Shown in pieces: positions 3,972 to 6,260 of a DNA stretch of 37,542 nt. The notes under the pieces are model-generated. The model saw only the letters and a program-made list of their open reading frames with translations. It did not search any database and was not told the origin of the DNA. Each line of letters starts with the position of its first letter. Position 1 is the stretch's first letter. Position numbers and translations under genes: made by a program. Source of the DNA: Gaiellales bacterium (GTDB lineage: Bacteria; Actinomycetota; Thermoleophilia; Gaiellales; JAICJC01); assembly GCA_036403155.1 (NCBI GenBank), contig DASWRM010000002.1, positions 1 to 37,542 on the forward strand, in the 5' to 3' direction.

Positions 3972-4517
3972 TCAGCGACCGAGCAGGCTCGACAGCAGCC
4001 CGGACTTCTGCTCGACCGGCTCCGTCCGCGGCTCGACCGGCGAGGGCGCCTGCATACGGCAGGCGGCCTGGCCGTGCTTCTCGAAGTACCGCTGGTGGTA
4101 GTCCTCGGCCCGCCAGAACGTGCCGGCGTCGGTGATCTGGGTGACGATCGGCCGTCCCAGGTGCGTCTGCATCGCGGCCAGCGACTGCTCCGCGACGCGG
4201 CGCTGCTCGGGGGAGTGGACGAAGATCTCCGAGCGGTACTGGCTGCCGACGTCCGGCCCCTGGCGGTCCTTCTGCGTCGGGTCGTGCTCGTTCCAGAACA
4301 CCGCGAGCAGCTGCTCGTAGGAGACCCGGTCCGGGTCGTACTCGACCTCGACGGCCTCGGCATGCCCCGTGCGGCCGCTGCAGACGGCGCGGTAATCCGG
4401 GCTCTCGACGGTTCCGCCCGTGTAGCCGACGGCCGTCGCCTCGACGCCGTCGATCTGCATGAACGCATACTCGACGCCCCAGAAGCAGCCTGCTGCGAAG
4501 GTGGCCTTCTCGGTCAT
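3972..4517 (-). CDS. msrA: Peptide-methionine (S)-S-oxide reductase
   Basis: MsrA reduces methionine-S-sulfoxide in damaged proteins and free methionine. The 181-residue protein opens with [14 protein letters not shown], holding catalytic Cys11 (codon TGC, so not selenocysteine). The family blocks [41 protein letters not shown] and [18 protein letters not shown] follow. Cys153 near the end (HGQAACRMQ) is the likely resolving cysteine for thioredoxin recycling; Cys46 is also present. A 25-residue tail after it is charged and ends in [10 protein letters not shown], which is not part of the family core. A GAGGAG sequence lies 11 nt upstream of the ATG. The gene follows the selenocysteine peroxiredoxin by 94 nt on the same strand, making an oxidative-damage pair. 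Confidence 0.96.
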
Positions 4518-4611
4518 ATGGCGATCAGCTCCTCAGAGAGTGGTGTCGGAAGCTTAAACGCGCCGCGCCCGTCCGCCGTTCCCGCAGTCAGGCGCGTCTC
4601 CAATCCGGCAC

Positions 4612-5076
4612 TCATCCCGCGTGGCCGCCGACCGCCTCCGCCTGCTCGACCAGCTCGGCGATGTCCGGCACCTCCCCGTCCGCGTAGCGCCGGGCGAAGC
4701 GGATCGTGCCGCCCGCGTCGGCGGTGAAGGCGGAGCGCACCGGCGTGTCCTCGAGGCCGTCGAGCGTCTGGCCCACGCCGAACGCGCGCACCGCCTCGGC
4801 GTTCCAGTCCGAGAGCAGCGGAAACGTGAGCCCGAGGCGCCGCGCCCACTCGAGGTGGGAGTACGGGCTGTCGCGCGACACCCCGACGATCGCCACTCCA
4901 AGCTCCCGGAACCGCGCGCTCCTGTCACGCAGGAGCCGGAGCTCCGTGCGTCAGGTGCCGGTCCAGTCGTAGAGGTAGAAGACGACCAGCACGGCGCCCA
5001 GGGTGGCGAGCGAGACGGGCTCGGCATCGACGCCGAAGAGGGTCAGGTCGGGCAGGCGGTCTCCCGGAGCGAGCAC
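4612..5076 (-). CDS. Selenocysteine-containing peroxiredoxin (in-frame TGA)
   Basis: Read from GTG 5076 through the TGA at 4953-4951, this is one uninterrupted 154-residue AhpC/TSA-type peroxiredoxin. The N-terminal half is VLAPGDRLPDLTLFGVDAEP...LVVFYLYDWTGT, then TGA (residue 42), then RTELRLLRDRSARFRELGVA and IVGVSRDSPYSHLEWARRLG. Residue 42 is where the family's peroxidatic Cys sits (T-x-x-C): here Thr39-Gly-Thr-Sec. The protein has no cysteine at all, so without Sec it would have no peroxidatic residue. Both sides keep the same frame and family alignment. The function would be reduction of hydrogen peroxide or organic peroxides, 1-Cys-type, with an external thiol. GTG 5076 has a TACCCT box 6 nt upstream. 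Ordinary annotation would call only a 3' fragment from 4896. A Cys-to-stop mutation is the alternative; the hairpin after the TGA argues against it. Confidence 0.82.
4918..4936 (-). promoter_or_regulatory. Candidate bacterial SECIS hairpin
   Basis: On the minus strand, GCTCCTG (4936-4930) pairs perfectly with CAGGAGC (4924-4918) around the 5-nt loop CGTGA. The loop opens 21 nt after the in-frame TGA at 4953-4951 and has a G at its second position. The known bacterial SECIS consensus asks for a short stem, a G in the first two loop bases and a loop roughly 16-37 nt from the UGA; all are met. SelB would bind this element while the ribosome is at the UGA. Confidence 0.68.
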
Positions 5077-5082
5077 CCGGCG

Positions 5083-5088
5083 AGGGTA
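5083..5088 (-). promoter_or_regulatory. -10 box TACCCT of the peroxiredoxin
   Basis: TACCCT on the minus strand ends 6 nt before GTG 5076, predicting a leaderless mRNA and supporting that start. It lies only 23 bp from the divergent box at 5112-5117, so each promoter's -35 region falls within the other transcription unit. Confidence 0.55.
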
Positions 5089-5111
5089 GCAAGATGCTCG
5101 AATCGATCATC

Positions 5112-5117
5112 TAGGAT
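5112..5117 (+). promoter_or_regulatory. -10 box TAGGAT of the DUF2277 gene
   Basis: TAGGAT ends 7 nt before ATG 5125, so transcription should start at or near the start codon. It is divergent from and very close to the peroxiredoxin promoter. Confidence 0.55.
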
Positions 5118-5124
5118 GCGACGC

Positions 5125-5400
5125 ATGTGCAGAAACATCCGACCACTCCACAACTACGAGCCGCCGACCACCGAGCATGAGGTGCACGAGGCAGCCCTGC
5201 AGTACGTCCGCAAGGTGAGCGGCATGACGAAGCCGTCGCGCGCCAACGAGGACGCGTTCGCGCGTGCCGTCGAGGCGGTCGCCACCGCGACCTCCGACCT
5301 GCTCGGCGAGCTCGTCACCGTCGCACCGCCGCGTGACCGCGCCGCCGAGATCGAGCGCGCACGCGAGCGAGCCGCCAAGCGGTTCGCCCACTCGGCCTAG
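5125..5400 (+). CDS. DUF2277 family protein
   Basis: This 91-residue protein starts MCRNIRPLHNYEPPTTEHEV, the hallmark of DUF2277, a small family of unknown function found in many bacteria. The invariant N-terminal Cys-Arg-Asn, the YVRKVSGMTKPSRANEDAF block and the C-terminal PPRDRAAEIERARERAAKRF are all present, at family length. I start at ATG 5125 because the family begins at MCRNI; an in-frame ATG nine bases earlier would add MRR. It is transcribed divergently from the selenocysteine peroxiredoxin with 48 nt between start codons. Its stop shares the tetranucleotide CTAG (5397-5400) with the convergent oxidoreductase. The conserved cysteine next to a redox gene is suggestive only. Confidence 0.92.
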   Translation: MCRNIRPLHNYEPPTTEHEVHEAALQYVRKVSGMTKPSRANEDAFARAVEAVATATSDLLGELVTVAPPRDRAAEIERARERAAKRFAHSA

Positions 5401-6260
5401 AGCAGCTCCCCCAACCGCTCGACCGAGCGCTGGGTGATCGGATCGGCGACGATGATCGCCTCGTCGGCGCCTGCGGCTGCGAGCCCCTCGATGTGCTCCT
5501 GGAGCCGCTCCGGCGGAATCGCGGGCACGCCGGGCACCGGAGCACGCTCGCCGGCCGCGTCGAGCGCCACCAGCACGCACGCGCTGCGCTGAACGGCGGC
5601 GGGGTCCCGTCCGGCGAGCCGGGCGGCCTCGCTGATGCTCGCGTTCAGCGCCGTGAAGCCCTCGACGCTGTTGCCGTAATCGTCGTACCACGTGTTCCAG
5701 GCGTCCGCGTGTGGGAGCGCGATGCCGAGCATCCGGGGGCCGTTCGACCCGATCATGATCGGCACCCGCCGCCCGGGGGACGGCAGCAGCACGACGTCGT
5801 CGGCGTCGTGGAACCGGCCGCGTGCGTCGACGCGCTCGCCGGCCAGCATGCCGCGGATGATAGAGAACGCCTCCTCGAACCGCGACACGCGCCGGTCGTA
5901 CGGCAGGCCGAACGCGGCGAACTCGGCGCGATTCCACCCGGCGCCGAGCCCGAGCACGAAGCGCCCGCCGCTGACCTCGTCGATCGTGGCGGCCATCTTG
6001 GCGATCAACCCCGGCGGGTGGAACGCCGTGCACGCGACGAGCGGGCCGAGCGTGACCCGCTCGGTGGCCGACGCCAGGGCAGCGAGCATCGTCCACGCCT
6101 CCCACGGGCCCCGTTCCGGCCGGTCGTCAGCGCGGTACAGCAGGTGATCGCCGAGCCAGACCGAGTCGAAGCCGGCGTCCTCGGCCGTGCGCGCGATGGC
6201 GACATATTCGGGCCAGCGAACGTCTCGCTCGACCTCCGGCAGCTGGATCCCGACGCGCAC
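5397..6260 (-). CDS. LLM-class F420-dependent oxidoreductase
   Basis: This 287-residue luciferase-like (TIM-barrel) flavin/F420 oxidoreductase has the usual landmarks: MRVGIQLPEVERDVRW at the first strand, EDAGFDSVWLGDHLLYR, TERVTLGPLVACTAFHPPGLIAKMAATIDEVSGGRFVLGLGAGWNRAEFAAFG, and the NGPRMLGIALPHADAWNTWYDDYG segment. These features match the F420-dependent subgroup common in actinobacteria, which reduces or oxidises small organic substrates with F420H2; the substrate is unknown. It starts with GTG, 6 nt after TAGAGT, and is probably leaderless. The 3' end overlaps the DUF2277 gene by the shared CTAG. No operon partner is evident. Confidence 0.9.
   Translation of the reverse strand: MRVGIQLPEVERDVRWPEYVAIARTAEDAGFDSVWLGDHLLYRADDRPERGPWEAWTMLAALASATERVTLGPLVACTAFHPPGLIAKMAATIDEVSGGRFVLGLGAGWNRAEFAAFGLPYDRRVSRFEEAFSIIRGMLAGERVDARGRFHDADDVVLLPSPGRRVPIMIGSNGPRMLGIALPHADAWNTWYDDYGNSVEGFTALNASISEAARLAGRDPAAVQRSACVLVALDAAGERAPVPGVPAIPPERLQEHIEGLAAAGADEAIIVADPITQRSVERLGELL

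Follow-up and report, generated by a model that had tools for sequence, protein, structure and literature searches.

The window (the whole stretch of 37,542 nt that was analysed) contains a peroxiredoxin gene on its minus strand (4612–5076), within which an in-frame TGA lies at 4953–4951. When this TGA is read as selenocysteine (Sec), the frame runs for 154 residues from a GTG start at 5076 to a terminal TGA at 4614–4612, with Sec as residue 42. The TGA is followed by a hairpin at 4936–4918 (minus strand), in which the 5' arm GCTCCTG (4936–4930) and the 3' arm CAGGAGC (4924–4918), the latter including the rare Arg codon AGG, form a 7-bp stem closed by a 5-nt apical loop, CGTGA (4929–4925), with G and U at its second and third positions and a spacing of 21 nt between the TGA and the loop. 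The lengths of stem, loop and spacer, the G in second place of the loop, the overlap of the stem with coding sequence (the hairpin spans the codons for R-L-L-R-D-R-S) and the TGA that ends the gene had all been described in an earlier, sequence-only reading, and each is exact in the sequence.

Six bases upstream of the GTG lies a possible −10 element, TACCCT (5083–5088, minus strand), and similar TA-rich hexamers precede many orthologues, where a TAGNCT-like hexamer is seen by inspection 6–8 bases ahead of the ATG or GTG; the Sec-peroxiredoxin mRNA may be leaderless, with a start directed by TACCCT upstream of the GTG at 5076. The neighbouring genes encode the Cys form of the methionine sulfoxide reductase MsrA (3972–4517, minus strand), a DUF2277 protein (divergently oriented gene, 5128–5400, plus strand) and a luciferase-like monooxygenase (5397–6260, minus strand). 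In the sister species, MsrA and the monooxygenase likewise lie close to the gene, whereas they were not found beside it in the other loci searched.

The product is an AhpC-TSA peroxiredoxin (PF00578, 95.8 bits), and none of the NCBIfam models reaches its cut-off for the window protein. In an alignment to Mycobacterium tuberculosis AhpE, residue 42 meets the sole active-site (peroxidatic) Cys and Arg114, which is invariant in 36 aligned members, meets Arg116. An AlphaFold model (pLDDT 95.1, pTM 0.90) has a predicted fold that superimposes on AhpE (1xxu) with a TM score of 0.91 at about 1.6 Å and ∼35% identity. As the window protein has no Cys codon, it would most naturally be read as an enzyme that works with one Sec and relies on an external reductant. 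The residue three before Sec is Ser in 64 and Thr in eight of the 72 Sec orthologues described below, and the position of the active-site proline (residue 35 in the window protein) is occupied by Leu in 69, Ile in one and Pro in two of them. This position is Val or Thr in distant actinobacterial Sec-peroxiredoxins (L161 and L164–L167) and Pro in most Cys relatives, and the presence of Sec and the loss of the active-site proline may be linked.

Conservation of the hairpin in selenocysteine orthologues

Taken alone, the hairpin is weak evidence for a SECIS, because equally long, rule-obeying stems occur elsewhere in the window and the 42-nt folding energy is unexceptional. A perfect Watson-Crick stem of at least 7 bp that obeys the bacterial SECIS (bSECIS) rule follows 2.7% of the TGAs in this GC-rich window and 3.2% of sampled window positions, and the figure is 0.26% under a narrow definition (loop of 4–6 nt, spacing of 18–24 nt). 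The 42-nt fold (−17.9 kcal/mol) does not stand out against shuffles (z −0.94). With the encoded protein and the local codon usage fixed, a stem of at least 6 bp forms at the exact site in 0.15–0.25% of synonymous versions. The stem that had been called perfect is real, but in DNA this rich in GC a fully complementary stem is nothing special on its own. A search of Rfam with window positions 4300–5500 gave no relevant match.

The orthologue search covered 129 genomes of the same order and found a relative in 85, and among the close orthologues the aligned codon is TGA in 72 and TGC or TGT in seven. The three innermost pairs of the stem (G-C, U-A, and C-G) are kept in 72/72 Sec orthologues, so that the sequence-only reading, which had looked to Sec homologues without a stem as counter-evidence, meets none among these close orthologues. 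Further out, pair 4 is formed in 71, pair 5 in 72 (eight of them as U-G) and pair 6 in 67 of the 72 sequences, while pair 7 is G-C in 42, C-G in five, G-U in two and unpaired in the remainder. At least five consecutive pairs are formed in 71/72, the exception (L091) having, by inspection, three uninterrupted pairs and then, past a bulged A, a further three. The loop reads CGTGA in 69/72 and CGGGA in 3/72. Covariation is thin, since the hairpin sequence hardly varies, and the single swap is that of pair 7 from G-C to C-G. The energy of the 19-nt core is mostly −8.7 to −10.8 kcal/mol in the Sec set and is at or below −7.5 kcal/mol in 68/72. The hairpin is part of the minimum-energy fold in 72/72 Sec sequences when 24 nt are folded from 12 nt past the UGA, in 71/72 at 27 nt and in only 38/72 at 30 nt, a drop that, in our reading, probably comes from competing pairing of the GAGCUCC/GGAGUUC type.

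Codon choice is frozen within the hairpin only. The Arg codon at Sec+8 is CGT in 69/72 against a usage of 5.1% (excess 2.5 bits), the Arg codon at Sec+10 is AGG in 71/72 against a usage of 3.8% (excess 3.1 bits), and the Ser codon at Sec+11, where present, is AGC in 95% against a usage of 14.9% (excess 1.1 bits), whereas the excess in the remaining codon columns is near zero (maximum 0.63 bits). The 15-nt core CTCCTGCGKGACAGG has 75 matches, spread over 72 of the 129 genomes, compared with six for the reversed control. All except five of the 75 fall in the Sec-peroxiredoxin gene, the one at G091:C47 lying in a second fragment of it. The five off-gene matches (G009, G015, G028, G059, and G101) have no in-frame TGA at the right distance and are about as many as the reversed control leads one to expect by chance, and they were rejected as further SECIS elements. 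The hairpin sequence of the Sec clade is absent from the distant actinobacterial Sec-peroxiredoxins (L161 and L164–L167), as expected, because the bSECIS elements of different genes are mostly dissimilar (PMC13188914).

Cysteine orthologues and the selenocysteine machinery

The hairpin is lacking in 7/7 Cys orthologues, in which 0–1 bp forms beside the loop and the 19 nt fold with an energy of −1.5 to −3.8 kcal/mol; a hairpin of equal strength in Cys-containing orthologues, the other observation that had been proposed as an argument against a SECIS, is therefore found in none of the seven. The Cys orthologues keep the amino acids L-R-D-R but encode them with other codons (CTG or CTC for Leu, CGC or CGG for the first Arg, and mostly CGC or CGG for the second), which places the constraint at the level of the RNA rather than of the protein. 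In a maximum-likelihood tree, the Cys forms are nested within the Sec clade at four separate places, and its well-supported branches force four independent changes between Sec and Cys. Three genomes (G058, G061, and G082) retain SelA and SelB, yet carry a Cys enzyme without the hairpin, which indicates that the hairpin tracks the Sec codon and not just the machinery. Neither SelA nor SelB was detected in two other genomes with Cys forms (G037 and G038). In the sister species, a Sec form (L023) occurs alongside a hairpin-less Cys paralogue (L061, G123:C105) in the same genome.

The host genome has a tRNA-Sec (63.8 bits) as well as SelA, SelB, and SelD, each above its cut-off. A formate dehydrogenase alpha subunit in the same genome (L120, G000:C36:9735-11597) contains a single in-frame TGA (CNRT-U-HAPSVVGL), followed by a hairpin, GTCGTC-GGTCT-GGCGAC, whose loop has G and U at positions 2–3 and, counted by eye, opens 18 nt past this TGA, which makes the subunit a candidate second selenoprotein of the host. 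With the Sec machinery and a TGA-containing formate dehydrogenase present, the Sec trait of the host is independent of the peroxiredoxin finding. The host assembly also contains two distinct selA-selB pairs, L134 (G000:C61:1-6000) and L135 (G000:C74:90000-96565), both at contig ends, whose SelA proteins are 62% identical and SelB proteins ∼72% identical; the assembly may thus hold two Sec systems, or one of the pairs may be a contaminant from a related bin.

Across the order, SelB was found in 50/72 genomes with the Sec form, a co-occurrence (Fisher p 0.0016) that is blurred by incomplete genomes. At E 1e-60, SelB was not seen in 22/72 Sec genomes, and both SelA and SelB went undetected in 17/72, for example, in G032 and G072 (91% complete). 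Incompleteness leads one to expect any one gene to be missing from ∼11 genomes, fewer than the 22 or 17 observed. SelD is present in 16 of the 17 genomes without SelA and SelB, and the missing genes probably reflect assembly gaps at the selA-selB locus. In related proteins of two genomes (L109, G085:C211, and L110, G083:C99), the in-frame TGA lies four codons downstream of this position (FTGSxEGG-U-Q) and the potential hairpin is another one (TGTCCCA-GTT-TGGGACA in L109); their sequences point to a possible second type of Sec-peroxiredoxin with a shifted Sec position.

Competing readings and comparison with known systems

The hairpin is best explained as a bacterial SECIS in the coding region of a Sec-peroxiredoxin, with the UGA at 4953–4951 decoded as Sec, a reading to which we assign a probability of about 95% from the comparison of sequences. 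It is supported by the 72 Sec orthologues that keep the stem, the seven Cys orthologues that lose it and the machinery of the host. SelB carrying Sec-tRNA-Sec would bind the loop immediately in front of the ribosome, with the UGA being decoded as Sec, so that decoding, as the sequence-only reading had held, would rely on the local hairpin. Sec would serve as the peroxidatic residue of an AhpE-like, Cys-free peroxiredoxin that reduces peroxides, and an external thiol or redoxin would be needed to regenerate the oxidised enzyme.

There is next to no probability left for the TGA being an ordinary stop, produced by a nonsense mutation or a sequencing error in a pseudogene, with the hairpin as a chance product of GC-rich sequence. 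Rule-obeying stems this long do follow ∼3% of the TGAs in the window and the comparison with shuffles does not mark the 42-nt fold as exceptional, but 72 genomes share the TGA where seven orthologues have Cys, the frame is intact on both sides of it, and the frozen codons lie solely within the hairpin; its conservation across the 72 orthologues rules out a chance origin, and by their sequences these orthologues appear to have already refuted the ordinary stop. The conserved segment might instead have nothing to do with Sec and act as a protein-independent signal of another kind: a binding site in DNA or RNA, a pause signal for translation or a regulatory element. Nucleotide conservation beyond the needs of the protein would fit another nucleic-acid signal too, but such an element would hardly be missing from every Cys orthologue, including the three genomes that have SelA and SelB, or coincide with the distance and G/U loop of a SECIS, and it is considered very improbable. 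A refinement of the SECIS reading, in which recoding depends on a longer 40-nt structure with a lower stem rather than on the 19-nt upper hairpin alone, is unlikely, although the 48-nt minimum-energy fold in the window does include a lower stem (−26.4 kcal/mol). The lower-stem pairs occur in 4–100% of the Sec orthologues, with similar frequencies in the Cys ones, and therefore follow the protein sequence, and Sec-specificity is limited to the upper stem; the lower stem was set aside as a functional part.

Under the preferred SECIS reading, gene callers that treat TGA as a stop truncate this gene, so that annotations probably overlook an antioxidant enzyme common in one order of Actinomycetota or list it as a fragment. 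The 72 Sec and seven Cys orthologues offer a clean comparative case of a recoding signal that dictates codon choice and releases it when Sec is lost, and the four changes between Sec and Cys are natural controls for the constraints on a SECIS in a coding region. The clade also raises the question of whether Sec allows a peroxiredoxin to do without the active-site proline, which is otherwise strongly conserved. A more tentative proposal, held to be possible but doubtful, is that of an order-wide clade of AhpE-like selenoperoxiredoxins without the catalytic proline, in which the SECIS is so invariant that SelB may read the sequence of the stem beyond its shape and loop.

Published descriptions of bSECIS elements give an apical loop of 3–9 nt, an upper stem of 4–16 bp and 16–37 nt from the UGA to the loop, with a G as the first or second loop base and, as a rule, G or U next to it on the 3' side, and a minimum free energy of at most −7.5 kcal/mol (PMC13188914). 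The loop of 5 nt, stem of 7 bp, spacing of 21 nt and loop G of the window hairpin all lie within these rules, as had been proposed, and so do the energy of its 42-nt fold and, at the level of the genome, the presence of tRNA-Sec, SelA, SelB, and SelD in the host. Like the consensus, it is a coding-region hairpin right behind a Sec UGA, with G and then U at loop positions 2–3 (PMC13188914). Unlike the usual bSECIS, its loop ends, C and A, form no closing N1-N2 pair, and unlike the mostly dissimilar bSECIS elements of different genes (PMC13188914), it is near-invariant across a whole order.

The Sec-peroxiredoxins that carry a T/SxxU motif form a well-known family, the 2006 definition of which needs only this motif (PMC1794560), and a 2016 survey counted 91 such proteins in 78 organisms (PMC5029168). 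The clade resembles them in its PF00578 domain, in Sec at the peroxidatic position and in the Thr or Ser that precedes this Sec by three residues in 72/72 members. It differs from the PxxxTxxU motif given in a 2026 review (PMC13188914), the proline being replaced by Leu or Ile in 70/72, and was therefore filed under T/SxxU. The selenoprotein peroxiredoxin PrxU (NCBIfam NF040737) has the same fold, although membership in this family was rejected (36.4 bits against a cut-off of 270). A plasmid search returned distant proteobacterial relatives only, and the nearest named record is from a Thermoleophilia bacterium of the same genus-level group. No description of a Sec-peroxiredoxin clade in Thermoleophilia was found in the open-access literature, and the clade is counted as new on this basis. 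The best solved relative by sequence is the 1-Cys peroxiredoxin AhpE of M. tuberculosis (1xxu and 4x0x), with which the protein shares a single peroxidatic residue, the lack of a resolving Cys and, in the predicted model, the AhpE fold, while Sec replaces Cys and the active-site proline is gone. The enzyme and its signal thus appear to be of known kinds, and the clade, judged by its sequences, is a new order-wide branch of the Sec-peroxiredoxins.
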